DNA from: a virus
IMG/VR virus record: IMGVR_UViG_3300027782_000068
Coordinates: 1 to 64,000 of that record
DNA: 64,000 nucleotides
Reading direction: 5' to 3' (one strand)
The translations under genes and the position numbers were made by a program. Numbering within the stretch: position 1 is the first letter of the stretch; each line of letters begins with the position of its first letter. The notes beneath the pieces were generated by a model that worked only from the letters and a program-made list of their open reading frames with translations, did not search any database and was not told the DNA's origin. Below, in pieces: positions 1 to 52,193 of this stretch.

Positions 1-174
1 GGTGTTGGTGTTGGTGTTGGTGTTGGTGTTGGTGTTGGTGTTGGTGTTGGTGTTGGTGTTGGTGTTGGTGTTGGTGTTGGTGTTGGTGTTGGTGTTGGTG
101 TTGGTGTTGGTGTTGGTGTTGGAGTCGGTGTTGGTGTTGGTGTTGGTGTTGGAGTCGGTGTTGGAGTCGGCGTC
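1..174. repeat. GGTGTT hexanucleotide tandem repeat encoding a (Thr-Pro)n linker
   Basis: Twenty perfect copies of GGTGTT fill 1-120 and degenerate copies (GGAGTC, GGCGTC) continue to about 174. On the minus strand, in the frame of the giant protein, it reads Thr-Pro over and over. The array continues beyond the window. As the unit is six bases, gain or loss of units keeps the reading frame. Shorter versions lie at about 2088-2130, 4878-4925, 5258-5283, 6408-6470, 7370-7395 and 9430-9545, each at a domain boundary of the same protein. Confidence 0.95.
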
Positions 175-12772: not shown

Positions 12773-12795
12773 ATTTTGTTCCTTAATGGTGATAA

Positions 12796-14529: not shown

Positions 14530-14531
14530 TA
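14523..14531 (+). promoter_or_regulatory. Candidate late promoter box TATATAATA
   Basis: An exact TATATAATA overlapping the stop codon of the helicase gene, 23 bases upstream of the preferred methyltransferase start at 14555. It shares the nonamer with the boxes at 11185 (minus) and 58570. Confidence 0.35.
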
Positions 14532-14554
14532 TACTTTATCTTATGAGGTTTACT

Positions 14555-15157: not shown

Positions 15158-15177
15158 CACTGCATTTCTTGTGTTAA
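15154..15177 (+). promoter_or_regulatory. Perfect 7-bp hairpin at the end of the methyltransferase gene
   Basis: TTAACAC (15154-15160) and GTGTTAA (15171-15177) are perfect inverted repeats around a ten-base loop, overlapping the stop codon of the preceding gene. There is no T run directly after the stem (a run of six T comes about 20 bases later), so it is a weak terminator at best. It may protect the transcript's 3' end. Confidence 0.35.
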
Positions 15178-15241
15178 TTCGCGGTTATCTGATTATTTTT
15201 TATAGTTATGTAGATATCGTGTCTAACTATAAAGGATAATA

Positions 15242-15865
15242 ATGAAAGCCGTGATATGTGCCGCAGGCTTTGGGGCTAGATTAAAGCAAAATATTCCAAA
15301 AGCAATGGCCATGGTGAATGGCAAAAGAATTATAGATTACCAAATTAAAGCCCTAAAGAATTATGAAGAAATATATGTGGTAGTTGGATTCAGATCTAAT
15401 CTCATAATAGCTCATTTAAAAAAGCTAGATAATATTAAATTTATATTAAACAATGATCCTGACCTAGGCATAATGCACACTATGCGGCTGATTTCTAAGG
15501 AAATAAACGAATTGGCTCTAATTTTAGATGGCGATATTATAATTAATGACGAAATTCCTTTGTTTAATCATGAATTTATAGGTATAAGTGCCCCGATCTA
15601 CCATAATCAGGCCGACACTAAAGCCGATAAAAAGCATGTTTATGTTGGTACGAAAGAGTCCGAGCAAGACTCTGCAAATATTTTCTGTACTAACCCTAGT
15701 AAACACGATTGGAACACCTTATCCATTCATGAAACTTTATCAAGATCCTTACCTAAGCCGTTTTTGCGTTTTGATTCTTTTAAGATTAAAACGCCAGATG
15801 ATAAGAACGCTGCATATACTTGGTTAACTAAATTCAGCAATAGTAACCTCAAAAATAATCAGTAA
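15242..15865 (+). CDS. Sugar-phosphate nucleotidyltransferase-like protein
   Basis: 207 residues with the nucleotidyltransferase signature at the N-terminus, AAGFGARLKQNIPKAM (7-22), and a metal-binding-type LDGD (95-98). This fold joins NTP to a sugar phosphate (or phosphocholine, or similar) to give an activated NDP- or CDP-donor. It is somewhat short for the family (usually 230-290), so the C-terminal acceptor-specificity part is minimal. The start has AAAGGA seven bases upstream. It sits directly before three glycosyl/methyl-transfer genes, consistent with making their donor. Which nucleotide or sugar is used cannot be read from the sequence. Confidence 0.75.
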   Translation: MKAVICAAGFGARLKQNIPKAMAMVNGKRIIDYQIKALKNYEEIYVVVGFRSNLIIAHLKKLDNIKFILNNDPDLGIMHTMRLISKEINELALILDGDIIINDEIPLFNHEFIGISAPIYHNQADTKADKKHVYVGTKESEQDSANIFCTNPSKHDWNTLSIHETLSRSLPKPFLRFDSFKIKTPDDKNAAYTWLTKFSNSNLKNNQ

Positions 15866-15897
15866 TTATAATTTATTCCATTCATTTAGGTATCATT

Positions 15898-16548
15898 ATG
15901 CTCCGATTAAAAAATGTTACATTGTTTATGGCTGATGGGCGCACGGATAAAAAATCTTTTGAAAGCTCGCTTTTTGCTGTTAGGCAATGCATTGATAAAG
16001 TCGATTTTGGTGAAGTGATATTTCAATCGGCTTACGATTCAGATATCACAGGTGTCGGCTATAAAAAAATAAAGCCAATGGTTATCGGTGAGTATAGTAA
16101 ATTAATCAGTGGTAGTCTTACTGACCACATCAATACTAAATTTGTTCTTGTTGTTCAACATGATGGTTTTATTCTTAACACTGCTAATTGGAATCCTGAT
16201 TTTTTAAATTATGATTATATAGGCGCACCGTGGCTTTTGGAAGCTACCAAAAGACCCAACTGCCGAGTAGGTAATGGAGGGTTTAGCCTGCGTAGTAAAA
16301 AGCTTTTAGATGTTTGTAAAAAGCATTACGGCGGTACCTGGGATAATGAGGATTGGCAAATTTGCCTTGTCAATAAGCCATTATTTGAATCACACGGTAT
16401 AGTGTTTGCGCCTTTAGATGTAGCAACGTGGTTTTCGATAGAATCACACATACCTGAATATGATCATGATATTAAAAAGCGCTTTGGGTTTCATGGGCCG
16501 CGCCAATATGAGGCTGTGAATGCAGCTTATGGGTTTGATCTTAAATAA
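15898..16548 (+). CDS. DUF5672-like putative glycosyltransferase
   Basis: 216 residues. VQHDGFIL (86-93), YDYIGAPW (105-112), VGNGGFSLRS (124-133), an NEDW acidic motif and a C-terminal FGFHG match the DUF5672 family, found in capsule and O-antigen loci and thought to be glycosyltransferases. The conserved NGGFSLRS loop and the later acidic motif are the likely active-site elements. No signal peptide or membrane segment, so it should act in the cytoplasm. It lies between the nucleotidyltransferase and another glycosyltransferase on the same strand. Family membership is fairly sure; the chemistry is inferred. Confidence 0.75.
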   Translation: MLRLKNVTLFMADGRTDKKSFESSLFAVRQCIDKVDFGEVIFQSAYDSDITGVGYKKIKPMVIGEYSKLISGSLTDHINTKFVLVVQHDGFILNTANWNPDFLNYDYIGAPWLLEATKRPNCRVGNGGFSLRSKKLLDVCKKHYGGTWDNEDWQICLVNKPLFESHGIVFAPLDVATWFSIESHIPEYDHDIKKRFGFHGPRQYEAVNAAYGFDLK

Positions 16549-16557
16549 AAATACAGT

Positions 16558-17199
16558 ATGAGAAAATTATTAGTCGGTATACCTGTAATTTATGACGTGG
16601 CTTGTGTTAAGAGATGCTTAGCCCATGTTATTGGTGCCGACGGTATCCTTATAATCGACAATAATGCCACACCTGACATAAAAAAATTAATAGAGCCTTA
16701 CAATAAAATAATTAATGCTAAGAATGTTTATGTTAATCCAGCTTGGAATCAATTAATGGAGTATTTCTTAGCACATCCAGAGTTCGATACCTTAATTATC
16801 CTAAATAGCGATATTTATCTTAAAAATGACGTTTGTGCTAAGATAAAATTAATAGATCTTGATACTCAGAAGGTAATTCCGCTTGTGACTGGCGTTAGTG
16901 CCTTTTCCGATTCTCCCAACCCGACAACACAAGTAGTGCAGGATGGCGTCCCTGGCGTCTTCATCTGCTTGTCTCGCAAGATGGTTGAGTTAGTTTATCC
17001 GATACCTGGGGAGATAAAGTTATGGTTCGGCGATAATTGGATATTTGATAAACTTAAATTGTTAGATTATAAAATGACCGTTTATAGCGACCTTCAAGCC
17101 ATCATGGACTGGAGTCGTAGTATAGGTCTGCTACCTGAAGCAAACACAATAATAGAGGAGGATAAAAAAGCATGGAGCCTAATTTCAAAGAAGATATAA
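16558..17199 (+). CDS. Glycosyltransferase family 2-like protein
   Basis: 213 residues of GT-A type. The N-terminal strand KLLVGIPV leads to IIDNNAT (32-38), and LIILNSDIYL (79-88) carries the DxD-like metal site as NSD. AWNQLMEYF is a typical helix before that motif. It probably moves a sugar from a nucleotide donor to an unknown acceptor. The ribosome site is poor (no clear AGGA before the ATG), suggesting translation coupled to the preceding gene, whose stop lies ten bases upstream. Its end overlaps the next gene by 28 bases. Confidence 0.7.
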   Translation: MRKLLVGIPVIYDVACVKRCLAHVIGADGILIIDNNATPDIKKLIEPYNKIINAKNVYVNPAWNQLMEYFLAHPEFDTLIILNSDIYLKNDVCAKIKLIDLDTQKVIPLVTGVSAFSDSPNPTTQVVQDGVPGVFICLSRKMVELVYPIPGEIKLWFGDNWIFDKLKLLDYKMTVYSDLQAIMDWSRSIGLLPEANTIIEEDKKAWSLISKKI

Positions 17200-17780
17200 C
17201 TCACGTTGATATTATAAACCATCTGATCAGAGCATATAATTTTAAATCTTATTTAGAGATAGGTGTTCAAGGTAAAGTATGCTGGGATAAAATCGTATGC
17301 GCAGATAAAGTAGGTGTCGAGCCGGTCGGGGAAATGTTCGATGATAGGATCAAGTCGATGAATAGTGATCAATTCTTTGATCAGAATGGTCAGAATTTCG
17401 ATTTGATTTTTATAGATGGTGACCATGATGAAGCGCAAGTCACAAAAGATATCTTAAATTCCTTGAAATATATAAACCCAAATGGCGCAATAGTTCTCCA
17501 CGATGCCTATCCGCCTAGCGAGGATTTTGCTGTATCTTATAGGTGTGGAACAGTGTTTAGGTCGATATGGCACATTAGACATATAGCAAATATTGGGATT
17601 GTAACTTATACTGGCGATTTCGGGGTAGCTGTAATAAGAAAAAAACCTAGCATAAATAAGTACCACGCTAGCGTCGGATCTTATAAGGAATATATGGCTG
17701 CTTCTGACAATCTGATAAACAAGTGTGATTATTATTCTGAATTTAAAGAAAAGATAATCGCATTATTTAACAATGATTAA
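17172..17780 (+). CDS. Class I SAM-dependent methyltransferase
   Basis: 202 residues. Motif I is YLEIGVQGKVCW near residue 29, then LIFIDGDHDEAQV and GAIVLHDAYPP, the usual pattern of Methyltransf_24-type enzymes that act on small molecules or sugars. The start at 17172 is supported by GAGGAGG about ten bases upstream, inside the previous gene. It is the last plus-strand gene of the island; the next five genes run the other way and converge with it, leaving 17 bases and no visible terminator between. Confidence 0.75.
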   Translation: MEPNFKEDITHVDIINHLIRAYNFKSYLEIGVQGKVCWDKIVCADKVGVEPVGEMFDDRIKSMNSDQFFDQNGQNFDLIFIDGDHDEAQVTKDILNSLKYINPNGAIVLHDAYPPSEDFAVSYRCGTVFRSIWHIRHIANIGIVTYTGDFGVAVIRKKPSINKYHASVGSYKEYMAASDNLINKCDYYSEFKEKIIALFNND

Positions 17781-24906: not shown

Positions 24907-25521
24907 TTGATAAGCCATATTATTTTAGCGAATTGTTCAGTCGAGTATGATGGTAGGGGTTTGAGCAAATTATCGAACGGTGTTTATCTAATAATAATAA
25001 AGTCCGATGCATCGTTACAGATTCATACTTCTAGGCTTATTAAACCGATCAACTATATGTCTGCAGGATCTAGGATAGAGTTCGATAGTAATAACATAAT
25101 TGCAAGAAATCGATCTGAAACCATCAAGATAACGATATGTGAAATGATTCATTCTTTTAGCCCTGCTGAGTGGCATGATAATAAAATACTAATGCTTAGG
25201 ACTGAGGCCGAATTAGTTCAAAAGCTGATTTGTGAGTTAAAGGCTGATTTTCCAGACGATGAGTATATCGAAGAATATGACACAAAATCTTTGGGGTTAA
25301 TAGATCTTGTAAGGATCGACGCTTCTGCAATTTATCATTCTTATGAGGTTAAAAGAAAAAAAGCTTCTATAGCTAATGTATCACAAGCTATTAGATACGT
25401 TGAATATTTATCAGCTATAAATAAGAAATGTGTAGGATATATAGTGGCTCCAAGTATTACTGAGAATGCTTTGGAATACGCCGAAAGTAAACATATAATA
25501 GTCAAGATAATTGACTTCTGA
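24907..25521 (+). CDS. nucS: NucS/EndoMS-like mismatch endonuclease
   Basis: 204 residues from a TTG start; this start restores the family's N-terminus (ILANCSVEYDGR, then IIIKSDASLQIH and KPINYMSAG), which is the DNA-binding domain. The C-terminal RecB-like nuclease has IDLV with D133, then E147-V-K149 and Q160/Y164, the same spacing I recall for the catalytic residues of archaeal NucS. The ending GYIVAPSITENALEYAE also fits. Known members cut both strands at mismatches in archaea and actinobacteria, which lack MutS. In a phage it may act in mismatch-driven repair, recombination or host DNA breakdown. The archaeal PCNA-binding C-terminal tail is not evident. Confidence 0.85.
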   Translation: MISHIILANCSVEYDGRGLSKLSNGVYLIIIKSDASLQIHTSRLIKPINYMSAGSRIEFDSNNIIARNRSETIKITICEMIHSFSPAEWHDNKILMLRTEAELVQKLICELKADFPDDEYIEEYDTKSLGLIDLVRIDASAIYHSYEVKRKKASIANVSQAIRYVEYLSAINKKCVGYIVAPSITENALEYAESKHIIVKIIDF

Positions 25522-29984: not shown

Positions 29985-30974
29985 ATGAGATACAATAGGG
30001 CTATTTCGCCTAATGCTGTACACAGTTCCCATCTACTGACTAGACTAAAAGCTCAGGCAGTTAAAGTATCGATAGTAAATGGTCCTCAACCAGGCGTGCG
30101 TCACCAGCAGCGTTCTGCGCCTCTACCACCTAAGCCCGAAAAACCACCGACGAAAATTCAAGATAGTGCCAGAGTTGCGCCCAAGAAGGCAGGGGCGGTT
30201 GAAGTTCGCCAGCAGCAGGCGATGCAAAGACAGGATATAAAGAAAAAGCGGGAACCACGTGTTACTTATATTTCACGTACTGTAGACCCGATTTATTTAG
30301 AAAAGACTAGATCTTTGAAAGACACCGGCCGAGGGAAAACGCTTATCATCATAGGCAATGGCCCAACGCTGAATGAAGTCGATTTGAGAAGCCTCAAGCA
30401 CAGGCCAGGAATAGAATTTTTATCTGTAAACTATCCTGACCCTAGGCTATGGCCTACTGATTACTGGGCTTTTTTTGATTCTTCCCAGATACAAAGGCAC
30501 GCTGCTCTTTGGGATGAATTTAATGGGACAATTTTTAATTCATCGTCCATACAAAGACGAAAGACGGGCACTATTCAGTTTAGAAACATTGGCGTTAAAT
30601 CTTTTAGCAAGGATTTAGTTGATGGTTTATGCATAGGCAGAAGTAGCGTATTCGCCAGCATGCAGATTGCGCTTTGGATGAATTTCGATAAGATTTACAT
30701 CTTTGGCGTTGATATGAATCCATCGACGGATTTAAAGAAATTACATTTTTATGGAACAAATCCTGATGTATTGCCAGAAAACAGGGCGAAAAGATTCGAG
30801 AAGGAAGCAGAATATTATGTTACGGCTTTTGAATCGATGTCTGAGAAGGAAAGAGATAAATTCACCTTCTGTAGCTCTGTCAACCCATGGCCTTTTATGT
30901 CTATGTTCAACAAACTTGATCATAAGATGGCTGCGTCTGAAATTTTGCGTGATTATTTAAAACCCAAGGAGTAG
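29985..30974 (+). CDS. DUF115/sialyltransferase-like Rossmann protein
   Basis: 329 residues. The first 100 are basic, Pro/Gln-rich and probably disordered (PLPPKPEKPPTK). The folded part has KTLIIIGNGPTLNEVDL, FLSVNYPDPRLWPTDYWAFFD, IGRSSVFASMQIALWM and IYIFGVDM, the GNGPSL-type pattern of DUF115/MptE-like and GT29/42-like proteins. Those act on phosphorylated pterins or transfer sialic-type sugars. Function here is unknown; a glycan role would match the island 8 kb away. It starts one base after the sigma gene's stop codon. Confidence 0.6.
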   Translation: MRYNRAISPNAVHSSHLLTRLKAQAVKVSIVNGPQPGVRHQQRSAPLPPKPEKPPTKIQDSARVAPKKAGAVEVRQQQAMQRQDIKKKREPRVTYISRTVDPIYLEKTRSLKDTGRGKTLIIIGNGPTLNEVDLRSLKHRPGIEFLSVNYPDPRLWPTDYWAFFDSSQIQRHAALWDEFNGTIFNSSSIQRRKTGTIQFRNIGVKSFSKDLVDGLCIGRSSVFASMQIALWMNFDKIYIFGVDMNPSTDLKKLHFYGTNPDVLPENRAKRFEKEAEYYVTAFESMSEKERDKFTFCSSVNPWPFMSMFNKLDHKMAASEILRDYLKPKE

Positions 30975-30981
30975 AAGGTTA

Positions 30982-31371
30982 ATGACTAAGATTTACGTTG
31001 CTTCTAGTTTATATAATAAAACCAATGTTAAAGCTTTATTTAAGTATCTTGCATATTTGCAATGCACTATTACTTATGATTGGACCACCCATGGTGGTGT
31101 AAACGATGAGGTTTCGCTTAAGGAGATCGGACTTAAAGAATATCAAGGTGTCGTCGATTGCGATGTTTTGGTTATGTTAATGCCAGCGAGGCTTGGTTCG
31201 CATGTCGAGCTTGGTATAGCTTTAGCGCTTTGTAAACCGGTCGTGATTATTACTAACGGTGAAGATTTCGAGAAGAAATCATTTTATTTCTTAGACCATG
31301 TAAATATTATCAGAGATATTGATGCTCTAAAAGGCGCACTTGATAAAATCACGGAACAAGAAAATGACTAA
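30982..31371 (+). CDS. Nucleoside 2-deoxyribosyltransferase/dNMP N-hydrolase-like protein
   Basis: 129 residues. It opens with KIYVASSL and has CDVLVMLMPARLGSHVELGI (60-79), in which E76 of the SHVELG motif is the nucleophile in the deoxyribosyltransferase and DNPH1/Rcl families; KPVVII follows. Members either swap bases on deoxyribose or split dNMP into base and deoxyribose 5-phosphate. With a DeoC-like barrel next (overlapping by eight bases) and PurZ two genes on, it may feed purine salvage for the Z pathway. It is short but complete for the DNPH1 type (about 150). Confidence 0.75.
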   Translation: MTKIYVASSLYNKTNVKALFKYLAYLQCTITYDWTTHGGVNDEVSLKEIGLKEYQGVVDCDVLVMLMPARLGSHVELGIALALCKPVVIITNGEDFEKKSFYFLDHVNIIRDIDALKGALDKITEQEND

Positions 31372-32041
31372 TGGCGAACTGCTCACGAGAATCGAAATAG
31401 ATGTTTTCCAAGGCAATGAGATCTTAGAATCTTTCGAATTAGCTCACAAGTATCGTTTGCCTGCGATTATAGTACATCCTTCATTAAGCTCTGATGCTTT
31501 GGTTTGCAGAGGCAGATCGAAAGGGAAGTATAAGATCATTACGCCAGTAGATTGGCCTAAGGGTGAAGTCTTTTCTACAGACAAGTTCAAGGGCTTAAGC
31601 TTAGATTCTTTAGAAACAGATGGTTTTGAAATATACATATCGCCAAAAAAGCAAAAGGGTGATATTAGAAAAGAAATTATTTCGTGCACTGAGTTTTTAA
31701 AGAAGTTTATCGGTGAGCTTTGCGAGATAAGATTCGTTATAGGCACGAGGACTAAGGATGAAGCAGATCTAGCCAGTGCCTATGAAGCCTTTCGTGATCT
31801 AAAGACGCCGACTTTAATTCGAGATGATATCACCTTAAAGACTCAGAATTATAAAGCCAATCCAGCTATACACAGCGCTTTTATCACCAACATGTCGCAA
31901 TTCTTAAAGTGCCCGATAAAAGTGAGTGGTAATCTCGACTGTATTGAAGATTTACTGGCTTGCGAACCTGCAAAAAGGTTCGGTGCCAGTCTTCAGCAGA
32001 CCAAGGGCATAATTAGAAGCATTAATACGGTGAAAAAATGA
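31364..32041 (+). CDS. DeoC-like (deoxyribose-phosphate aldolase superfamily) TIM barrel
   Basis: 225 residues from the ATG at 31364 (CGGAA seven bases upstream; a TTG at 31340 is the longer alternative). Segments line up with DeoC: AIIVHPSL, then IITPVDWPKGE (DeoC has VTNFPHG), CEIRFVIGTRT (VLLKVIIETG), and the C-terminal CPIKVSGNLDCIEDL and KRFGAS (GGVRT and RFGAS). By eye the DeoC Schiff-base lysine falls on an arginine (TLIRDD) and the paired aspartate is also changed, so aldolase activity is doubtful. It may be a relative with altered chemistry. Overlaps both neighbours by a few bases. Confidence 0.55.
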   Translation: MTNGELLTRIEIDVFQGNEILESFELAHKYRLPAIIVHPSLSSDALVCRGRSKGKYKIITPVDWPKGEVFSTDKFKGLSLDSLETDGFEIYISPKKQKGDIRKEIISCTEFLKKFIGELCEIRFVIGTRTKDEADLASAYEAFRDLKTPTLIRDDITLKTQNYKANPAIHSAFITNMSQFLKCPIKVSGNLDCIEDLLACEPAKRFGASLQQTKGIIRSINTVKK

Positions 32042-32334
32042 ACATTATTGAAATATTAGACCAGCTTGATGATGATATCGGTCTTTTATTTAAGACCGAA
32101 CAATGGTTACATTCTGAAAAATCGCGTATGTCAGCTGAAGCTTCTGATATACTAAACAGATTAAAAGCAATTGACAATGCTATAAATTTAAAAAAGGTAT
32201 TAAATAATATAGACATCGGGGCTTTAAGGCATGCTTACGATGAAGGCTTTCATGGTAAAGAGAATCTTATGCTTGAACTGATAAAATCTTATCTGAATAA
32301 TTCTTCGGCGGAGGCTCAAGATGCAACGCGGTAA
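32038..32334 (+). CDS. Hypothetical small helical protein
   Basis: 98 residues, mostly helical and acidic (IIEILDQLDDDIGLLFKTEQ; YDEGFHGKENLMLELIKSYL). No family recognised. Its ATG overlaps the TGA of the DeoC-like gene (ATGA), and its last 14 bases overlap the start of purZ, so it is translated as part of this cassette. It may be an accessory subunit of a nucleotide enzyme; that is inference from position. Confidence 0.7.
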   Translation: MNIIEILDQLDDDIGLLFKTEQWLHSEKSRMSAEASDILNRLKAIDNAINLKKVLNNIDIGALRHAYDEGFHGKENLMLELIKSYLNNSSAEAQDATR

Positions 32335-33520
32335 GTTCAATGTGGTTACTGATGGTCAGTTCGGCAGCACTGGTAAAGGTCTGATAACTTCTTATCTCGC
32401 ACAAAAATACAGACCCGAATTTTTATCAAATACAAACATGGCTAATGCTGGTCATACAGCTGTTAACGTAGACGGTACTGCATATATTGCAAAAGCGATG
32501 CCATCGGCTGCGATCTTGAGGAAATGGCTACCAAATTACAATCCTTGGATAATCATGGGTTCTTCTTCTGCATTTACTTTACTACAGCTGATGAAAGAAG
32601 TAGAATTAACAGGAAGTATAGATAGGCTTATTATTCACCAAAGAGCTATGGTAATCACGGAAGAGCACAGAGCAAGGGAAAATGAAGGCAAAGACAGCAC
32701 TAAGCATCTAGCGAGCACAATGCAAGGTTGTGGTGCTGCCATAGCAGACAAGATACAAAGGCTGCCGGGGACGAAGCTAGCAGTGGATTATGAAGAGTTA
32801 AGCAGATTTGTATTTTGCAAAACGTGGACACGACCTTCTGCCATATTAGAGGACATGTCGCTTTTTGATCCATTTAATGTAATGTGTAAACACCATTGTG
32901 AAGCTCTTCACGAATATATTGACTGTGTGCTTAGAGCTACGTTCACATTTTTACATGAAGGCGCACAAGGATTCTCACTTGACATCAACCACGGTCATTC
33001 ATACCCCACTTGCACTAGCCGTGGCACTTCTGCAGTTCAAAACTTAGCCGATATGGGGATTTCTCCAAAGTACCTTGGTGATGTTTACCTTGTACTTCGG
33101 CCTTATCCAATCAGAGTCGGTAATGTGATTGAAGAAGGCGTTCAGAAGGGATATTCTGGCGGAGGGTATGACGATCAGGTCGAAATTGATTGGGAAGAAA
33201 TAGCTAGAAAATCAGAGATGCCATTAGAATATGCAACTATCTTAAGAGAAAAAGAGAAAACGACAGTTACAAAGAGGGTCAGAAGAGTATTTTCTTTTTC
33301 TAAAAGACAACTGCGTGAGGCTGTGATGGTTAATGGCGCTACCAAATTAGCTCTTAATTTTGCTAATTACATCGACTGGACTTGCTTTGCTTCATCATCA
33401 AGAGACAAACTTACCCCGAAGATCCTTGATTTCATAAAGATGCTTGAGGATGTTGCCGGAATACCTGTAACGCTTGTTGGAACTGGCCCACAATATGACC
33501 ACGTCATTGACCTATCGTAA
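32321..33520 (+). CDS. purZ: PurZ: (2-amino)adenylosuccinate synthetase for 2-aminoadenine (Z) synthesis
   Basis: 399 residues with the adenylosuccinate synthetase fold. In PurA the P-loop reads GDEGKGK with a catalytic Asp; here it is QFGSTGKGLI (13-22), with Ser16 in place of that Asp, the known mark of phage PurZ, which takes dGMP and aspartate to the Z precursor. Other PurZ-type motifs: NAGHT (42-46), EGAQGFSL (213-220), YPTCTSRGTSA (228-238), LADMGIS, RPYPIRVG and VRRVFSFS. All resemble vibriophage PurZ as I recall it. GGAGG precedes the ATG. Partners DatZ, MazZ and DpoZ are not in the window. It implies, but does not prove, Z-containing DNA. Confidence 0.85.
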   Translation: MQRGKFNVVTDGQFGSTGKGLITSYLAQKYRPEFLSNTNMANAGHTAVNVDGTAYIAKAMPSAAILRKWLPNYNPWIIMGSSSAFTLLQLMKEVELTGSIDRLIIHQRAMVITEEHRARENEGKDSTKHLASTMQGCGAAIADKIQRLPGTKLAVDYEELSRFVFCKTWTRPSAILEDMSLFDPFNVMCKHHCEALHEYIDCVLRATFTFLHEGAQGFSLDINHGHSYPTCTSRGTSAVQNLADMGISPKYLGDVYLVLRPYPIRVGNVIEEGVQKGYSGGGYDDQVEIDWEEIARKSEMPLEYATILREKEKTTVTKRVRRVFSFSKRQLREAVMVNGATKLALNFANYIDWTCFASSSRDKLTPKILDFIKMLEDVAGIPVTLVGTGPQYDHVIDLS

Positions 33521-34286
33521 TAATTTAGAAGTCTCGGCCTGCATCGACGAACATCATGATAACATCGATGAATCTATAGATCTTATCAGAGACAGCGGAT
33601 TCAAATCAGCATCTATACTTAATATAAATGGATTATCACTAACTTCTTTGCCGGACATTACCATAGAAAGAATTAAGAAAAAATTGGCAGATATGCCTAT
33701 CAATATCGTAAGGATAGAATTGGGACATGGAAAAACAATAGTACAAAAGGATATAGATAGAGAACTTTCGATCGCATCATATTTTAAAGCCAAAGCTATT
33801 CAGATCGGAATCGAAAAATCATCATTTATCGATATGACAAGTTTCAATGATTTCATTAGTAAACTATCGTCATTTGCTGTGTCGATGTCGCTTGTACCGG
33901 TGTTAGAAATGACTGATACGATGTTACTAGATAACACAGAAAGTCTTCAGAAGTTTTTATCGTCACACAAAAGGTTTAAATTATCATATGATCCTTGCCG
34001 TTTTATGGAGAAAAGCAATAAGAATCCTCACGATCGTTGGTTTGAGCCTCTTAAAACTTGTGTTTATAGCATAATTGCTAGGGATTTTAAAACTGGTTCC
34101 GGTTTTTATCCTGTCGGTCAAGGCGCTACAAATATTATTAAGGCTATAGATGAACATATTTTGAATGGTGGTAAATATGCTATATTTAGACCGTCGCTTG
34201 GAAGGCGTTTCGGCAGTACGATTGGAAAGAAAGAAACGTTTAAATTGGCTTTAGAAGTGTTTAATAATTTATTTAGGAGTATTTAG
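33495..34286 (+). CDS. Xylose isomerase-like TIM barrel protein
   Basis: 263 residues from the ATG at 33495, overlapping the end of purZ by 26 bases; an in-frame TTG at 33474 is an alternative. VSACIDEHHDN at the start, LSYDPCRFM, and ARDFKTGSGFYPVGQGATN match the AP-endonuclease-2/sugar isomerase superfamily (Glu, Asp and His metal ligands spread over the barrel; KDF.PG.G..P.G.G motif). Members are sugar isomerases, epimerases or endonuclease IV. Which of these applies cannot be told; its place after purZ points to nucleotide or sugar metabolism. Confidence 0.65.
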   Translation: MTTSLTYRNNLEVSACIDEHHDNIDESIDLIRDSGFKSASILNINGLSLTSLPDITIERIKKKLADMPINIVRIELGHGKTIVQKDIDRELSIASYFKAKAIQIGIEKSSFIDMTSFNDFISKLSSFAVSMSLVPVLEMTDTMLLDNTESLQKFLSSHKRFKLSYDPCRFMEKSNKNPHDRWFEPLKTCVYSIIARDFKTGSGFYPVGQGATNIIKAIDEHILNGGKYAIFRPSLGRRFGSTIGKKETFKLALEVFNNLFRSI

Positions 34287-34499
34287 ATGCTCAATGTCAA
34301 TGAAGCAATCCAGAAAATAAAGTCTATCGGCGCAAGCAACGTTAGAATAGTGCCTATGGCTGGACAACCGATTAATAATGGTGACCACCAGATCGAGATC
34401 AAAACCGGAGCCAGTTGGGAATCTATCGTTTCTGGCGTAAAAAAGAAAATGGCGGAAGACATAGTAAATCAAGCTATAAACAAGGTTATCCTTGGTTAA
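34287..34499 (+). CDS. Hypothetical small protein
   Basis: 70 residues, alpha/beta, with no recognised family (NEAIQKIKSIGASNVRIVPM; AEDIVNQAINKVIL). The start directly follows the stop of the barrel gene, with TTAGGAG about nine bases before. The stop shares a base with the start of the next gene (TAATG), so three genes are coupled. Confidence 0.7.
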   Translation: MLNVNEAIQKIKSIGASNVRIVPMAGQPINNGDHQIEIKTGASWESIVSGVKKKMAEDIVNQAINKVILG

Positions 34500-34942
34500 T
34501 GATCAAGAAAAAAATCAAATCTGTAATCGAATTATCTAAATATAAAATAGGAAATAAATTATATTTTATAGATTTATACACTAATTCCGATAAGGATCTA
34601 GTACCAAGCGAACTAAATTGGATGTTAGCTTGCCATCCAAAGATATTCTTCGTTAAAAAGATATATAAATACAATACAAAATCAAAATATATATGTCCTA
34701 GACTACCTAGCGCGGTTTTCAGCATATTATCATCACTTCTTGTCGGCCAATTCAATATAATATGTTTCGAAGTGTCGGCTATCAAACGCTGCGCTAATAC
34801 CGGCGAATTCTATTATTTCGATGGTAGCGGAGATTGGCACCCAGAATCAATACTATTCACAACAGAGCGTAAAGCACTCAACGAGAAAAAACGGATATTA
34901 TCGTTGGTTGATGATTGGGCATCGTACAATCGTGGCGATTAA
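34499..34942 (+). CDS. Hypothetical protein
   Basis: 147 residues from the ATG at 34499, which overlaps the preceding stop; the longer frame from 34415 would run through the upstream gene. Strongly basic N-terminus (MIKKKIKSVIELSKYKIGNK), many aromatic residues, and C-terminal WASYNRGD. No family recognised. Gene order suggests it belongs with the nucleotide cassette or with the peptidase that follows. Confidence 0.65.
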   Translation: MIKKKIKSVIELSKYKIGNKLYFIDLYTNSDKDLVPSELNWMLACHPKIFFVKKIYKYNTKSKYICPRLPSAVFSILSSLLVGQFNIICFEVSAIKRCANTGEFYYFDGSGDWHPESILFTTERKALNEKKRILSLVDDWASYNRGD

Positions 34943-34951
34943 ATATATTAT

Positions 34952-35479
34952 ATGAAGACTACGAAGGTTAATATATCATTGCCAAGGGTTGCTCAAAAGC
35001 ACGACTATGACTGCGGGGCGGCAGCTCTGAAGTCGATCTATGAATACGAACATCCCGAAGATAAAAACGACTTATCAAAATACACCAGGTTATTGGGTAG
35101 TACCAAAGGCAAAGGCACAAGCACACAAGAATTAGTTAGTGCTTGTAAATTACTAGGTCTTAATTTTCAAGAATACCACGGCATGTCTCTTTCTAGACTT
35201 CAAAAGGAAATTAAAATCGGAAATCCGATACTTTGCCTGATAAGATCAAATGATCATGGTCACTTTGTAGTGGCTATGGGGTGCGACGAAGATAATATCT
35301 TTTTTGAAGACCCATTCAAAAAGAAAAAAAATAATGGTTATTTGCCGAAAAAAGAATTTTTCAAAAGATGGACAGATGGCGATAATCATAGCGATTTAAA
35401 ACGATTTGGATTGATTTTTAAAGTAACGCGTCCGAAATCGGATAAGAAAATTACAGCCTATAAGATTCTAGGAAATTAA
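34952..35479 (+). CDS. Peptidase C39-like cysteine protease
   Basis: 175 residues. The catalytic triad is visible: C21 in HDYDCGAAAL (17-26), H104 in DHGHFVVAMG and D120 in EDP. This is the papain-like C39 fold that in bacteriocin exporters cuts after a double-glycine leader. No ABC transporter domain is attached and no double-glycine peptide was seen nearby. It lies one base before the 1,982-residue virion protein gene, so it may process a structural protein or attack a host target. The fold call is strong; the substrate is unknown. Confidence 0.8.
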   Translation: MKTTKVNISLPRVAQKHDYDCGAAALKSIYEYEHPEDKNDLSKYTRLLGSTKGKGTSTQELVSACKLLGLNFQEYHGMSLSRLQKEIKIGNPILCLIRSNDHGHFVVAMGCDEDNIFFEDPFKKKKNNGYLPKKEFFKRWTDGDNHSDLKRFGLIFKVTRPKSDKKITAYKILGN

Positions 35480-45218: not shown

Positions 45219-46016
45219 ATGAATAGTCGAATCGAACGCGTGTTTCCGACCGCTTATCTTATAGGCCAAACTACATTGGACTTAGATCAATTGACAAAGT
45301 ATTTAGAAGATACTGATGCCAAGCCATTTGTTAGAGAGATCGAAGAAGCTAGATTTTCTGGTGTGTCTGATATGGAGATTATTTGTTCTGTATATGCTAA
45401 GTTATGTTACAAGTCATTCGTTGTTGGGACAAATAAAAACATCACTAGAACAAGATCCATAAAGGATAATATTAAAGGCTGTTTTGATGTCAAGCATGGT
45501 AGTATCTTTGAACATGTATTCTTTAATTTTATTATTAGAGACTGTTCAAGGATTTTTACCCATGAACTTGTTAGGCACAGAGTCGGTACTGCGTTTAGTC
45601 AAAATTCTGGTCGTTACATCAGAGAGGATGTTATACGTGTTGTTCTTAGCCCAGATATAGAGCATTCAAAAAAGATCGACGCTATCTTAGAGAATATCTG
45701 CGCCGGTTACGATGAATTAGATTATGAATTAGATATCGATTCTACTATAAGGTTCGACGAAAAGAAAAAATTAACCAGTTCTATCAGGCGAATCCTGCCT
45801 AATATGTGTGCTAATGACATAGGTTTTACTGTCAATGTCCGAGAATTAAGACACATACTTTTGATGCGTACTTCCCGCCATGCAGAATGGGAAATGCGGT
45901 ATGTTTTTGACAAGATTTATAAATTATTACTGCCAAAATATGGCGCTTTTTTCCATGGTTTACATGTAGGGCCACATGAGGGATATGTAGAGATTACTGA
46001 GGAGCCTTATGTATAA
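45219..46016 (+). CDS. thyX: Flavin-dependent thymidylate synthase ThyX
   Basis: 265 residues. The ThyX motif is at 119-133, RHRVGTAFSQNSGRY, giving dUMP-binding Arg and Ser residues, and the C-terminal part has RELRHILLMRTSRHAEWEMR. It makes dTMP from dUMP using FAD and methylene-tetrahydrofolate. The classic form is RHR-x7-S; here eight residues separate RHR from the Ser, one more than usual. Stop and start overlap dut by eight bases, so thymidylate production and dUTP removal are coupled, fitting a phage that makes its own dTTP. Confidence 0.95.
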   Translation: MNSRIERVFPTAYLIGQTTLDLDQLTKYLEDTDAKPFVREIEEARFSGVSDMEIICSVYAKLCYKSFVVGTNKNITRTRSIKDNIKGCFDVKHGSIFEHVFFNFIIRDCSRIFTHELVRHRVGTAFSQNSGRYIREDVIRVVLSPDIEHSKKIDAILENICAGYDELDYELDIDSTIRFDEKKKLTSSIRRILPNMCANDIGFTVNVRELRHILLMRTSRHAEWEMRYVFDKIYKLLLPKYGAFFHGLHVGPHEGYVEITEEPYV

Positions 46017-46569
46017 AATAACTTTAGAAAGGCTAAATGGTAACGATTTGCCGCTGCCGAAATTCGAGACAAGCGGCTCAGCGTGTTTTGACATATCAGC
46101 ATGTTTAACACGCCGGATGTCTGAATGCTTACTAAATGGAAGAAAAAAGCATTTTTTATATAATGCATATGCTACAAATTTAAGGAAGTATATCGAAGCA
46201 CTAGACGATATTACTTCTGAAGAATCAGAAATGTCTCGGTTATATATTCATCCCACCGAAACCATTTTGATACCGACTGGATATAAAGCATCATTTGCTT
46301 CAGATTTAGTGTTAAAATTATATATCAGATCTTCTATCGGTTTAAATGGTCTCAATCTAGCTAACCAAGTAGGGATCGTTGATTCTGATTATCGTGGTGA
46401 GATCTTTATTTCTATAAAAAACAATTCCGATATCGCCCAAACTATAAACCACGGTGACCGTATCGCCCAAGCAATGCTCGAATGTATAGTTAAACCAGAG
46501 ATCATTGCTGGTGTCGTTGATCACACAGCGCGCAATGATGGTGGTTTTGGCTCTACCGGAAGAAAATGA
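46009..46569 (+). CDS. dut: dUTP diphosphatase (dUTPase)
   Basis: 186 residues. Motif I is GSACFDISA, motifs II-III are RSSIGLNGL and NQVGIVDSDYRGEI, motif IV HGDRIAQAML, and motif V RNDGGFGSTG at the C-terminus. It hydrolyses dUTP to dUMP, the substrate of ThyX encoded just before. It is longer than the usual 140-150 residues because of about 40 extra residues between motifs I and II (RKKHFLYNAYATNLRKYIEA). Trimer formation is expected for this family. Confidence 0.95.
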   Translation: MYKITLERLNGNDLPLPKFETSGSACFDISACLTRRMSECLLNGRKKHFLYNAYATNLRKYIEALDDITSEESEMSRLYIHPTETILIPTGYKASFASDLVLKLYIRSSIGLNGLNLANQVGIVDSDYRGEIFISIKNNSDIAQTINHGDRIAQAMLECIVKPEIIAGVVDHTARNDGGFGSTGRK

Positions 46570-47891: not shown

Positions 47892-48174
47892 TGATATAAG
47901 GAAAATGAAATTATTGGCTATGGCTAAAATAAAAGAGATTATACCAGCTGTATCTGAAGGTATAAAGGACGAATTTAAATCCAAAATGGATATTCAAGTA
48001 GAAATTTCGGATTCTACAGATAATGCTGGTATAGTAGAAAAGGTGTTGGTTGGTAAAAAAGAATATCCGACGGTCGATGAGCTTAAAGCCCAAAAAACCG
48101 ACACTGAACATTATATAAGAGATTTAGATGCCACCAAAATCACAGAAATGGTAAAAACCTATGGCGCTCTATGA
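47878..48174 (+). CDS. Hypothetical neck/tail-associated protein
   Basis: 98 residues from a GTG at 47878, which has GGAG six bases upstream; an ATG at 47866 would overlap that site. Helical and lysine-rich (KIKEIIPAVSEGIKDEFKSK), ending KTYGAL. It overlaps both neighbours by 14 bases, so the three are translated together. Its place between a neck-like protein and a gp15-like terminator suggests a connector or assembly role. Confidence 0.65.
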   Translation: MSLSDDIRKMKLLAMAKIKEIIPAVSEGIKDEFKSKMDIQVEISDSTDNAGIVEKVLVGKKEYPTVDELKAQKTDTEHYIRDLDATKITEMVKTYGAL

Positions 48175-48937
48175 TTTTAATCATGATACCACTATAAATC
48201 CGCAAACGCTGCAAAATGTTCCCTTCGGGCTTCCAAGGGATGCAGCAGTGAGCCAGCTTAGCGACAGTCAGGGCGGCAGACTGACATTAACGGGCGATGA
48301 ATATAAAACTTATCCTCAATACGTTGAGGATTTTATTACGCCTGGGTTCAGGGCGCTTGACGAAGCAGTTAAGCAATATTGGACCGGTATAAGGGTTCCT
48401 ACTAAAGATGCCTACAGATTCATGAAGGTTAGGATAGCTGGCGGTAGCAAATCGATTTTAGTCTGGCGAGGAGATTTAAAAGACGGTAGAACCAAATTAC
48501 CTGTCGCTGCTATTAGCCGGACGTCGCACGAATTTAATAAAGATAAATTTAGTCCTACTTATTTATCAATGGGTAATAGGTATTTAAACACCTCTGGTTC
48601 TATGGTGGCAAAGCTTTATCGTCCAGTTCCCTACAATGTTACCTATGAAATGGGTGTCTGGGCTGAACACAAGAGAGATGCAGAGTACATATTATATCAA
48701 GTTTTGACGCGTTTTAATCCATTGGCAGAGCTGCGAATGTTCGACGGGAAGCTTGTCGGAAATGTGCAGATGAAGTTAAACAGTGCCGCTGATAATAGTG
48801 ATAAAGAAATAGGCAATGATTCTATGGCCAAGGTTAAATATGATTTCAGTTTTACAGCGGAAGCTTGGTTGCCATTGCCTCAAGTGGTGGTACCAACCGT
48901 TGTCGGCCAAGTAACAGCATATTATACACCTACTTAA
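48161..48937 (+). CDS. gp15: gp15-like tail terminator / sheath stabiliser
   Basis: 258 residues. FMKVRIAGGSK and YRPVPYNVTYEMGVWAEHKRD, then YILYQVLTRFNPLAELRMFD and KVKYDFSFTAEAWLPLP follow T4 gp15 (whose equivalents read SPIKMIYELSIFTRYEDD and IVEQILPYFQP). gp15 caps the tail tube and sheath and joins the tail to the neck. Position directly before the sheath gene supports the call. Similar in length to T4 gp15 (272). Confidence 0.75.
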   Translation: MALYDFNHDTTINPQTLQNVPFGLPRDAAVSQLSDSQGGRLTLTGDEYKTYPQYVEDFITPGFRALDEAVKQYWTGIRVPTKDAYRFMKVRIAGGSKSILVWRGDLKDGRTKLPVAAISRTSHEFNKDKFSPTYLSMGNRYLNTSGSMVAKLYRPVPYNVTYEMGVWAEHKRDAEYILYQVLTRFNPLAELRMFDGKLVGNVQMKLNSAADNSDKEIGNDSMAKVKYDFSFTAEAWLPLPQVVVPTVVGQVTAYYTPT

Positions 48938-49301: not shown

Positions 49302-52193
49302 ATGGCAGTATATCTATCACCTGGTGTATATCCTCGTGAAATAGACCTTTCGCTTGTAGCTTCTAACGCTGGGCCGCTTCGCCCCGCTTTCATCGGTACT
49401 GCTCAACGAGGACCAATAAATACCCCCACGTTTATTTCTGGCGCTGAATCTGCAATCAATACTTTCGGCACACCGTTTGTAGAAAGTTATCTCATGTATG
49501 CGGTTCTTGCATACATGGAAGATGGCGATTCTTGTTATATAATGAGAGTTGGTGTAGAATATTCTACCGCTTTACCAACAAGATTGATAGACATTAGCAT
49601 CGATAACACTCCTAACCGAACGTACGGCTGGGGTCGAATTCCAGTCTTCACTGGAATCGACTACGGTAGAATTAACTTACGTAGGCCAACAGTTGCTGAT
49701 CCCGTTGTATTTCATAATGCCAGCATATCGACACCAATATTCCAAAATGCTACCTCAGAGTCTACTTCTCCCACAACAGAAGCTAGTCTTTCAGTCTCTG
49801 GGACTTATGCCGGTGTCTTGTCAGCTACTTATGTTTTAGAAGTTACTAGTAACACAGATATAAACCCTGCGACCAATTCACATTATAAGATAAACGGTGC
49901 CGACTATCGTGTTGTTGACACTTCTTATGACAGCTCAGATCCGAGCTATCTAGTCGCCGAAGGTACTCTGGTTGATGGTTCGAACACCGGCACTTCTAGC
50001 TCTTTTGTGGTGCAGGGTGCTATACTTTCAGGTATCATCACAGTTAGCGCTGGTCGAATTAGTGCTGGTGATATGTTCCAATTCGAACTAACTCCTAATA
50101 ATAGAAAATTTAGGATCGCTGTCGAAGGCATAGCACATTCATATGATGATGTCATTGGTGCTGGGACTTATGATAATACTGCTGATCTAGTCGATGCTTT
50201 AAATAATGTGCTAGGTACCACTGGCGGCCACGACTTTGTGTTTGTTGCAGCGGTTGATGAATCGGGGGCAGTGGTGCCACAGATAAGATCGACAGCAAAC
50301 GGCGATAGGATTCAAATAGTCAATGGCGAAGCTTGGTCTTTAACGCTTGGAGTCTCGTTGTATCAATATGATATACCACGAGCGCGAGTGATTTCAACCA
50401 AGACTGATCCTTATGACATAACCACCGACAATAACCAATTGGTTTTAAAGATAGTATCTCCTTCTTCGAGCTTTACTATTACCGCAAATCTGGTAGCTGG
50501 TTTAGCCCAGACAGCCGATAATATTGCTGGCCAATTAAATGTCTTTGGTACGGTGGCTGGATTGGATTATTATGAATCCTTTGCTATTAATGTACCGAAC
50601 TCTTCCGGTATGGTAATTGTAATCGCTACTACGCCGAACAACGAATTAGATTCTTTGTTTTTACTAGCTAATTATACTAATATTAAATCTTTACGCTTTA
50701 CTGAAGAAGTCGGTTTGCTTTACCCTTATGGTGGAGCATACCGCGGATTTTCAGACGAACGTGTTCTAATGCCTGTGGAAAGCGATGATCCTACAGTACC
50801 TCTATCATGTGTAACAGATCCTACTTCTGACGAATGTGCCCAAGATGCTGCGTATTATCAGAGCATTGTGGGTTGGTTTGTCGGTACTTCTGCTGGAACG
50901 TGGGTCGGAAAATATGACGCAGTTAGAGACACGTATTCTGGCTTTACGGTCGGTGTACAGCTTGTTAATACTAACAATGCTTCAACAAGCCAGAAATATA
51001 TTATTACTGTTAAAGATTCGTCTGGTTATGCTGTCGATTCCATATCTGATGTTTCATTCGATCCTGCTGATGCTCGTTATATCGCCAATATCATTAACCC
51101 TGGTTCATCGATAGGTGGTAATAATGGCAATGGGACCATAAATTGGATCGAACGTCCTTCCTATGTTGGTGACGGCGAGATCAGGCAACCAGCCTCTTTT
51201 AGCAATAGACAGTTTAGAGGCATGGCTAATGGTATTCCAACCGACCCAGCAGATTCAGCGACATACCTTGATGCTGCAGTCATTGGAAATCCCGCCACAA
51301 GTTCTGGACTTTATGCTTTCCAAAACCCAGAAGCTTTTGATATTATGTTACTTGCTATTCCTGGGTTTAGCTCTGGTGCTGTGATCGGATCTGCGCTGCA
51401 GCTTTGCGAAAATCGAGGCGATGTTTTATTCTTAGTAGATCCTCCAATTGGACTAAGACCACAGCAGGCTATTGATTGGCATAATGGTCTTCTCTATGAT
51501 GACCTTGATCATGCAATTAATAGTTCGTATGGTGCTTTGTATTGGAGTTGGCTAAGAATCTTTGACCAATTCAGCGCTGAAGAACGCTGGGTACCTCCTT
51601 CTGGCCATGTCGCAGGTATTTTCTCAAGGACTGCCCAGAATACTGAAGTTTGGTTTGCACCAGCCGGTCTACGACGTGGTAGGATTCAAACAGCCCTTGC
51701 TGTTGAATACAACCCCACCCAGTCCGAAAGGGATTTGTTATATGGATCTGGTAATAGTGTTAACCCAATTGTTAGCTTCGCTCAGGATGGCATAGTTGTC
51801 TGGGGCCAGCGAACACTTCAACGTTCACCAACTGCTCTCGATAGAGTTAATGTTAGAATGTTAATGATTTATATCAAGAAGAATTTGACCTCCATTTTAC
51901 GACAGTTCATTTTCGAACCTAATGACCGCACTCTTTGGGCGCAGGTTTTTAGTGTAGTAAACCCTTTCCTTTCGGAGATTGCTTCAAGAAGGGGTCTAAC
52001 TGGCTATAAAGTGGTCGTTGATGCATCAAACAATACTCCTGAAAGGATTGACAGGAATGAACTGTGGGTTTCGGTGTTCTTACAACCTACCAAGTCCGTC
52101 GAATTTATTGTTCTAAACATGGCTGTATTGAAGACTGGTGCTTCTTTTGCAGCAGAAGAGTCTTTGGCTGCTGCTGGCCTTGTAACTATCTAA
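49302..52193 (+). CDS. gp18: Tail sheath protein, gp18-like
   Basis: 963 residues. The N-terminus (YLSPGVYPREIDLS, GPLRPAFIGTAQRGPINTPT) and the C-terminal domain (WVPPSGHVAGIFSRT, WFAPAGLRRGRI, NPIVSFAQDGIVVWGQRTL, VNVRMLMIYIKK, FIFEPNDRTLW) are typical of contractile sheaths. Together they form the interlocking core. The middle, about residues 130-620, is a large insertion (T4 gp18 is 659 in all) with Ser/Thr/Gly-rich, beta-type sequence, expected on the outer face of the sheath. It contracts to drive the tube into the cell. AGAGGAG precedes the ATG. Confidence 0.95.
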   Translation: MAVYLSPGVYPREIDLSLVASNAGPLRPAFIGTAQRGPINTPTFISGAESAINTFGTPFVESYLMYAVLAYMEDGDSCYIMRVGVEYSTALPTRLIDISIDNTPNRTYGWGRIPVFTGIDYGRINLRRPTVADPVVFHNASISTPIFQNATSESTSPTTEASLSVSGTYAGVLSATYVLEVTSNTDINPATNSHYKINGADYRVVDTSYDSSDPSYLVAEGTLVDGSNTGTSSSFVVQGAILSGIITVSAGRISAGDMFQFELTPNNRKFRIAVEGIAHSYDDVIGAGTYDNTADLVDALNNVLGTTGGHDFVFVAAVDESGAVVPQIRSTANGDRIQIVNGEAWSLTLGVSLYQYDIPRARVISTKTDPYDITTDNNQLVLKIVSPSSSFTITANLVAGLAQTADNIAGQLNVFGTVAGLDYYESFAINVPNSSGMVIVIATTPNNELDSLFLLANYTNIKSLRFTEEVGLLYPYGGAYRGFSDERVLMPVESDDPTVPLSCVTDPTSDECAQDAAYYQSIVGWFVGTSAGTWVGKYDAVRDTYSGFTVGVQLVNTNNASTSQKYIITVKDSSGYAVDSISDVSFDPADARYIANIINPGSSIGGNNGNGTINWIERPSYVGDGEIRQPASFSNRQFRGMANGIPTDPADSATYLDAAVIGNPATSSGLYAFQNPEAFDIMLLAIPGFSSGAVIGSALQLCENRGDVLFLVDPPIGLRPQQAIDWHNGLLYDDLDHAINSSYGALYWSWLRIFDQFSAEERWVPPSGHVAGIFSRTAQNTEVWFAPAGLRRGRIQTALAVEYNPTQSERDLLYGSGNSVNPIVSFAQDGIVVWGQRTLQRSPTALDRVNVRMLMIYIKKNLTSILRQFIFEPNDRTLWAQVFSVVNPFLSEIASRRGLTGYKVVVDASNNTPERIDRNELWVSVFLQPTKSVEFIVLNMAVLKTGASFAAEESLAAAGLVTI

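Follow-up and report, generated by a model that had tools for sequence, protein, structure and literature searches.

A PurZ-type gene cluster in large contractile-tailed phages points to a probable DatZ-free version of the 2-aminoadenine system

The stretch of DNA analyzed here, referred to below as the window, covers the first 64,000 nucleotides of IMGVR_UViG_3300027782_000068, an IMG/VR record of 75,320 bp that is classed as linear and is therefore probably a fragment. At positions 32321-33520 of its plus strand it encodes a 399-residue enzyme of the PurZ type, a succino-2-amino-deoxyadenylate synthetase. Next to this gene stand an NDT-superfamily gene and a gene for a protein with the predicted fold of deoxyribose-phosphate aldolase (DERA), in the place where other phages with 2-aminoadenine (Z) in their DNA have datZ and mazZ. 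The most likely explanation is that giant myoviruses possess a distinct, DatZ-free version of the Z system. The accessible portions of two earlier papers describe Z genomes from siphoviruses and podoviruses (PMC8342488; PMC8599892), and PurZ, PurZ0, DatZ, MazZ, DutZ, DmtZ and DpoZ are already known. A search through titles and the beginnings of abstracts in the open-access literature, with subscription papers outside its scope, found no paper on PurZ in jumbo or contractile-tailed phages, nor one in which a PurZ clade of jumbo phages with such tails comes with NDT-like and DERA-fold partners.

The synthetase gene is a single uninterrupted frame that starts with ATG and carries the P-loop GSTGKG. 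Its product is matched by Pfam Adenylsucc_synt (E-value 2.3e-33) and, far above chance, by PHROG 1211, 2-aminooxy adenylosuccinate synthetase (1.9e-63). Among the NCBIfam models the best is PurZ NF038379 with 228.8 bits, followed by adenylosuccinate synthetase NF003295 (211 bits, cut-off 368) and TIGR00184 purA (140 bits, cut-off 396). The top sequence matches in the PDB are adenylosuccinate-synthetase chains, first 6fm1 (153 bits) and then 7odx (132 bits), an entry titled PurZ, which we take to be the S-2L enzyme. The former is phiVC8 PurZ, according to the part of the S-2L paper at hand (PMC8342488).

For a comparison of residues, the S-2L active-site list given in that same part of the paper (PMC8342488) was mapped onto a 31-row alignment. 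The catalytic Ser at S-2L position 23 is present in 30 of the 31 rows, the sole exception being E. coli PurA, which has Asp. The window enzyme agrees with S-2L or phiVC8 at Ser23, N49, A50, G51, H52, T53, S131, T132, R146 and Q190, and furthermore at C204, T205, R240, V241, T273-T276, R280, N305, F306, N308, G335 and P336. Its aspartate loop, T273-T276, reads TTVT as in S-2L and phiVC8, whereas that of PurA reads GATT. The ATP-site pair N305/F306 is also that of the two phage enzymes (T305 and K306 in PurA), and at position 308 the window has the Asn of phiVC8 (D308 in PurA). At position 244 it has Val, unlike S-2L. The positions at which E. coli PurA departs from the window include 23 (Asp), 131, 273-275, 305, 306 and 308, and the three aligned PurZ0 rows have Met306 and Asp308. 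A preliminary description of this DNA, made from its letters alone, had called the gene purZ rather than purA. The P-loop, the catalytic Ser, the aspartate-loop and ATP-site residues and the tree position described below all bear this out, and the segments which it had named (EGAQGFSL, CTSR, LADMGI and VRRVFSFS) are all present in the frame. Judged by its catalytic residue, its pocket residues and the tree, the window enzyme is very probably of the PurZ type.

The tree was built with IQ-TREE from 79 rows. Near-identical or duplicate loci were mostly excluded, although the window group is represented by three rows and a 408-kb record by two (L073, L093). PurZ records that bear inteins (L065/L121, L292) stayed outside. 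The window PurZ falls into a 31-row clade with a support of 98/99. The contigs of this clade measure 35 to 427 kb, and 21 of its 31 rows come from contigs of at least 95 kb. S-2L, phiVC8, SH-Ab 15497 and Bm1 are in another group, and PurZ0 is in a third, beside PurA. When six rows were dropped, one for its odd composition and five, including S-2L, for having the longest branches, the clade was kept at 100/99; the deeper branch order was not the same in the two trees. The phylogeny proposed in the preliminary description as a check therefore places the window protein among the phage PurZ rows with E. coli PurA outside, this being the single PurA included and the program warning of long branches where it joins PurZ0. 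In terms of sequence, the separation of the window's clade from both classical PurZ and PurZ0 appears well supported.

One relative, L067, has a window-like cluster, but its PurZ (L067:9475-10659) is only about 31% identical, reads GSSGKG and lies elsewhere in the tree; it looks as if purZ had been replaced in place by a distant purZ. The 1212-residue PurZ frame at L065:9738-13376, the same record as L121, has two intein-like inserts, which by eye interrupt conserved PurZ motifs, after NAGH and after SHYPQ. A 755-residue PurZ frame at L292:10063-12318, in which PurZ is matched in two pieces, carries an insert that is probably an intein.

The enzyme is not confined to a single short contig. An initial PurZ scan gave 14 loci, including L004/G001, a near-identical record of 274,625 bp with an identical PurZ and identical neighbor proteins, and L008-L015, records of 95-356 kb whose PurZ is 50-56% identical to that of the window. 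A PurZ profile scan gave at least 572 confirmed stretches; among the matches listed, 78 loci were kept and the largest contig measured 426,960 bp. Below, G000 denotes the window's own 75-kb record, a fragment, and G001 the 274-kb record.

The purZ gene is part of a compact plus-strand cluster (29985-34942), in which adjoining genes overlap or leave tiny gaps. The cluster opens with a conserved 329-residue protein (29985-30974; a weak MptE-like/WaaZ-like match), followed by the 129-residue NDT-superfamily protein (30982-31371), which is by its profiles and predicted fold a candidate deoxynucleoside-monophosphate N-hydrolase or transferase, DmtZ-like in kind. Next are the DERA-fold protein (31340-32041, an open reading frame (ORF) from TTG 31340 whose start is likely ATG 31364) and a 98-residue protein with homologs in some relatives only, whose gene (32038-32334) overlaps both the DERA-fold gene and purZ. 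Downstream of purZ lie a TIM-barrel, sugar-isomerase-like protein (33474-34286; weak profile matches to AsbF, 3dx5, at 0.0023 and Art22, 8z1i, at 0.0029), a 70-residue protein (34287-34499) and a 175-residue ORF (34415-34942), the last two conserved in relatives and, like the 98-residue protein, without an assigned function. The likely starts are ATG 33495, overlapping the end of purZ, for the TIM-barrel gene and ATG 34499 for the 175-residue ORF. A peptidase C39-like protein (34952-35479) adjoins the cluster in the window; it was present in 2 of 12 compared loci, the near-identical two.

The order NDT, DERA-fold, PurZ, TIM, 70-residue and 175-residue protein is mostly kept among relatives, the TIM-barrel gene remaining downstream of purZ. 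In the fetched flanks of 16 window-like loci, the NDT-like gene was found in 14, the DERA-fold gene in 15 and the TIM gene in 13, and DatZ, MazZ and DpoZ were matched in none. These 16 contain two near-identical pairs; L067 and L121 were counted by neighborhood and L104 by tree position. The 33 classical PurZ loci are the mirror image, with DatZ in 30, MazZ in 20 and DpoZ in 29, and with neither the NDT-like nor the DERA-fold protein in any. Of these 33, four went into the DatZ profile and three into the MazZ profile, and one was the DpoZ query.

The NDT-like protein scores 25.4 bits with Pfam Nuc_deoxyrib_tr, below the cut-off of 28.8. The top matches of its family profile are NMP-cleaving enzymes, namely BlsM (4.8e-6) and CMP N-glycosidases/MilB (1e-5 to 3.5e-4). 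The predicted model has a predicted local distance difference test (pLDDT) score of 95, and its nearest folds are CMP N-glycosidase, NDT and DNPH1. Hence, the protein is predicted to have the NDT-superfamily fold. Tyr5 and Glu76 are invariant in all 13 rows and align with the Tyr and the nucleophilic Glu of three DmtZ proteins, a set that does not include Ghobes DmtZ. The catalytic set of the latter is Tyr6/Asn77/Glu103 plus Asp12, and the NDT-like protein has no clear counterpart of Asp12. NDT profiles at 1e-3 found no match in four PurZ0 loci.

The DERA-fold protein matched no PDB chain by sequence, even at an E-value of 10, and had no match in the phage collection at 0.1. By contrast, the 49 PDB structures that best match its predicted model (pLDDT 81.6) are all either deoxyribose-phosphate aldolases or entries with aldolase in their title, with a best Foldseek E-value of 2.4e-9 and template modeling (TM) scores of 0.72 by query and 0.77 by target. 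The window protein at 31340-32041 is therefore predicted to have the DERA fold. An hhalign comparison with E. coli DeoC produced a chance-level partial alignment only. The Schiff-base Lys of DERA, presumably Lys167 of the E. coli enzyme, is expected at a position where the window protein has Arg161, as assigned from strand order (strand 6); Arg is found there in all 10 aligned rows and, by eye, in four more. We therefore do not call the protein an aldolase.

The distribution of the DERA-fold protein is strict, for among the records found it is known only from those that bear PurZ. Its query found 21 records, four of them near-identical to the window, and all 21 also encode PurZ. For 20 of these the fetched flank contains PurZ, truncated in one case by the end of the contig, and in G016 it lies elsewhere in the record. 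A separate scan gave 16 loci: the 12 that were checked all have an adjoining PurZ, and the other four are PurZ-bearing contigs of the window group.

The preliminary description had also proposed a search of the rest of the genome for datZ, mazZ and a DpoZ. DatZ was matched neither in the window's record nor in G001, seven related records searched whole had no match to MazZ or DpoZ, and genes of the DNA polymerase III (Pol III) alpha type were found instead of DpoZ. These outcomes speak against a standard Z system. The DatZ profile detects S-2L, phiVC8 and Bm1, which were among the sequences used to build it, and, independently, most other classical loci. It found nothing in G000 (75 kb), in G001 (274,625 bp) or in six further window-like whole records (G012, G015, G023-G026). 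Over 15 IMG/VR records its sole hit, in G008, was weak and extended across stop codons, and an ORF search did not repeat it. In the 5007 ORFs of seven window-like records there was no match to DatZ, MazZ, the SH-Ab fusion or DpoZ, the sensitivity for MazZ being limited, as its profile finds 20 of the 33 classical loci and a Pfam MazG search missed S-2L and phiVC8. The phiVC8 and DrRobert polymerase queries likewise had no match at an E-value of 0.1 in these seven records.

Of 20 records, 16 have a Pol III alpha match; among the 13 window-like records searched there are 12 such cases, the fragment G000 being the exception. In 15 of the 16 the match is spread over several frames, and the break falls near profile position 98-99. 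In G001 it is split inside the catalytic domain into two genes, at 212351-213751 (PHP and part of the catalytic domain) and 215018-217741 (the rest), which in the numbering of locus L054 is 12351-17741. A PolB like that of T4 was found in none of 18 records. G001 also encodes RecA, a DnaB-type helicase, a gp32-like protein and a 399-residue protein that PolA matches in part (39.1 bits), and similar weak PolA matches occur in relatives. Presumably, the Pol III alpha-type enzyme copies the phage genome.

As for nucleotide supply, Lyase_1-family proteins are present in 6 of 18 large-phage PurZ records, G001 not among them. The three of these six that were examined all have purB as their best model, one of them above its cut-off. 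Neither PurB nor a guanylate kinase was found in the 274-kb relative. The window has a dUTPase-fold protein with an insertion between motifs (46009-46569, plus strand; Pfam dUTPase 2.4e-17, PHROG 135). It is the same as the gene at 151968-152528 of G001, which has a second, different dUTPase-fold gene at 82053-82487. After comparison by alignment, the reading of these genes as DutZ, and of the 46009-46569 product as a DutZ-like dNTP diphosphatase, is speculative. G009 has a fusion in which, by eye, a nucleotide-kinase-like domain precedes a dUTPase domain.

Taken together, we consider it moderately probable that PurZ leads to dZTP, that the phage polymerase places it in the genome of a jumbo contractile phage and that dATP is controlled by a route through the NDT-like and DERA-fold proteins. 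The window PurZ would join dGMP and aspartate at the expense of ATP (or dATP) to give N6-succino-2-amino-dAMP. An adenylosuccinate lyase, here that of the host and in some relatives perhaps phage-encoded, and nucleotide kinases would then yield dZTP, which a phage polymerase, probably of the split Pol III alpha type, would insert opposite T in a jumbo-size genome. Because no DatZ was found, dATP would have to be held down by another route, and the NDT-like and DERA-fold proteins seem the obvious candidates for such DatZ-independent control. Most likely, the NDT-superfamily neighbor would release adenine and deoxyribose 5-phosphate from dAMP, in the manner of DmtZ, an NDT-family dAMP hydrolase and deoxyribose-5-phosphate transferase that works with PurZ0 (PMC12884076). 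A dNTP diphosphatase, for which the phage dUTPase-fold protein is a candidate, would feed this step, and the DERA-fold protein may act on, or bind, the deoxyribose-5-phosphate end of the chemistry. We infer every enzymatic activity in this scheme, as well as the incorporation of Z, the polymerase that copies the genome and the extent, complete or partial, to which A is replaced. That Z enters the phage DNA is likely.

Several findings weigh against this explanation. With 228.8 bits against a curated cut-off of 300, the window PurZ misses NF038379 and so lies outside the PurZ set curated by NCBI, and in the part of the published list used here it is unlike both S-2L and phiVC8 at pocket positions 130, with Ala instead of Gly, and 203, with Thr instead of Tyr. 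Chemistry is invisible in sequence, and hence the evidence for Z is not direct. The missing DatZ, MazZ and DpoZ also count here, and these absences are themselves no proof, as the records are "linear" and may be fragments. Moreover, DatZ occurs elsewhere in the same PurZ clade: it was matched at L107, L108, L118 and G019 (with MazZ at L118), the whole records with a DatZ profile match being G019, G021, G027 and G028, and L016 encodes a PolA related to DpoZ and also matches MazG. The DatZ-free state therefore belongs to the window-like group and not to the whole clade. Within this group, L104 has neither the NDT-like nor the DERA-fold gene in its flank, and L015/G012 has its NDT-like gene at another place (L261).

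The two partners raise difficulties of their own. Against DmtZ the NDT-like protein reaches an hhalign probability of 59 (E-value 9e-5, 73 columns), a relationship at the superfamily level only, and it is an invariant Glu53 that stands near Asn77 of DmtZ. As a PurZ-specific marker the NDT-like gene fails, since for 15 of its 32 loci PurZ was not matched in the record; most of these records are short, and the search for PurZ in them had no positive genome, the same alignment detecting PurZ elsewhere. An ordinary aldolase activity of the DERA-fold protein is doubtful, as the expected Schiff-base Lys appears to be Arg.

These points leave room for other explanations. PurZ may be active and dZTP made, with replacement only partial, so that the DNA is a mixture of A and Z sufficient to blunt restriction. 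We regard this as rather unlikely, although it accounts for the lack of DatZ and DpoZ in the window-like records searched and for a polymerase of the Pol III alpha type. In the available part of the S-2L paper, DatZ is called essential to the indirect specificity of the PrimPol of that phage (PMC8342488), by which logic A would enter a genome whose nucleotide pool is not controlled. However, the same part states that S-2L PurZ itself can use dATP as an energy donor (PMC8342488), and the conserved NDT-like gene or the dUTPase-fold enzyme could remove dATP in the window's phage.

A second alternative, which we find quite improbable, is a different modified base. The DERA-fold and TIM-barrel proteins, each with a sugar-chemistry fold, would turn the PurZ product into a hypermodified nucleotide instead of ordinary 2-aminoadenine. 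Such a role would fit the strict tie of the DERA-fold protein to PurZ (21 of 21 records), the apparent loss of the Schiff-base Lys, which suggests a changed reaction, and the linkage of the TIM gene (13 of 16 window-like loci); one literature search found no role for a DERA-fold protein in Z phages. There is, however, no known chemistry for this, and the TIM gene and its neighbors may be a case of mere synteny, unlinked to PurZ. Finally, the sub-cut-off NCBIfam PurZ score and the fair NF003295 match of 211 bits would suit a host take-over enzyme that drains dGMP, aspartate or ATP, or boosts adenylate as a PurA substitute, and leaves no Z in the DNA, but this is highly improbable given the catalytic Ser, the PurZ-specific loop and ATP-site residues, a place in the tree among PurZ proteins and apart from E. 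coli PurA, and the PurB-type lyase, the next step of the pathway, in several large-phage relatives.

Under the preferred explanation, Z in a jumbo phage genome with dATP controlled by a DatZ-independent route, the window's lineage may be compared with two known types of Z system. It shares with cyanophage S-2L, Vibrio phage phiVC8, Acinetobacter phage SH-Ab 15497 and Burkholderia phage Bm1 the catalytic Ser of PurZ, most of the pocket residues on the partially available list and the ATP-type donor site N305/F306. These four phages have records of 39-68 kb, with DatZ, MazZ (or a fusion) and DpoZ (not in S-2L) beside purZ, whereas the window lineage has large contigs, a contractile tail, a Pol III alpha-type polymerase and no DatZ, MazZ or DpoZ that could be found. 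For the S-2L triad, co-expression in laboratory E. coli with measurement of Z in the DNA has been carried out (PMC8342488). Like the PurZ0 phages (Gordonia Ghobes and Archimedes, Arthrobacter Wayne and DrRobert), the window lineage carries dUTPase-fold genes and, close to its synthetase gene, one of the NDT superfamily (PMC12884076). Unlike them, it has a synthetase from another clade, without the Met306 and Asp308 seen in the three PurZ0 rows, and an unfused NDT-like gene that is at most superfamily-related to DmtZ. A DERA-fold gene beside the NDT-like gene is missing from the four PurZ0 loci. The DERA-fold protein itself resembles DERA/DeoC in predicted fold, and differs from it in the lack of a sequence match and in the Arg for Lys.

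More tentatively still, this jumbo-phage lineage may possess a distinct Z system throughout, with a PurZ clade of its own, a split Pol III alpha in place of DpoZ or PrimPol and, in place of DatZ and MazZ, a dAMP hydrolase of the NDT superfamily that is coupled to a new DERA-fold enzyme, PurZ-obligate and with altered catalysis. Known Z phages exclude A by means of DatZ and, mostly, a Z-selective polymerase. If the explanation is true, the switch from A to Z is workable with a polymerase of the bacterial type and another way of cleaning the nucleotide pool, Z-DNA extends to genomes of several hundred kb (clade contigs reach 427 kb), and the DERA-fold protein is a new candidate enzyme of Z metabolism.

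A cultured phage makes the wider idea of Z-DNA in myoviruses, although not the window's clade, directly testable. MaF61 (PQ858689), a 168-kb myovirus of Flavobacterium sp. B330, has a PurZ-type ORF with the P-loop GSSGKG, and it carries PurB-type and guanylate-kinase-like genes of its own. Its contractile tail was seen by transmission electron microscopy, according to the part of its description at hand (PMC13269007), and the words adenosuccinate and aminoadenine are not present in the main text as far as it was available (PMC13269007). The best model for its PurZ-type gene is NCBIfam PurZ, at 145 bits and below the cut-off, and in the tree it forms a long branch outside the window's clade. 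MaF61 has no match to the NDT-like or DERA-fold proteins. Its ORF97 frame (PQ858689; L076, L316-L319) has a marginal DatZ-profile match with an E-value of 8e-4.

The preliminary description had placed the synthetase in a large phage with T4-type tail and recombination genes, and both parts of this statement hold. Pfam matches a T4 gp15-like tail sheath stabilizer (48161-48937; PF16724, 1e-12), a sheath protein of a contractile tail (49302-52193; PF04984, 3.7e-13, and PF17482, 1.8e-12) and a T4 gp19-like tail tube protein (52217-52807; PF06841, 4.3e-7), all on the plus strand. The recombination genes are those of an SMC/RAD50-type protein and a calcineurin-like phosphoesterase, which is SbcD/gp47-like by eye.

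The first 11 kb of the window look empty, and recoding was considered as the cause and rejected, as a minus-strand frame of 3709 residues stays open there when the standard code is used and every codon keeps its usual meaning. This open-ended frame (3-11129, at least 3709 residues) has long Pro-Thr repeats and repeated propeller-like segments and runs off the record on the left. At 24907-25521 the window encodes a NucS-like endonuclease with both Pfam NucS domains. Just to the right of the window, L003:14181-17561 is a ribonucleotide-reductase-like frame (1126 residues, by eye) with an intein-like insert. The 274-kb relative also encodes an actin-like protein of the Volactin family at L054:10107-11657 (Pfam PF25216, 7.4e-38).

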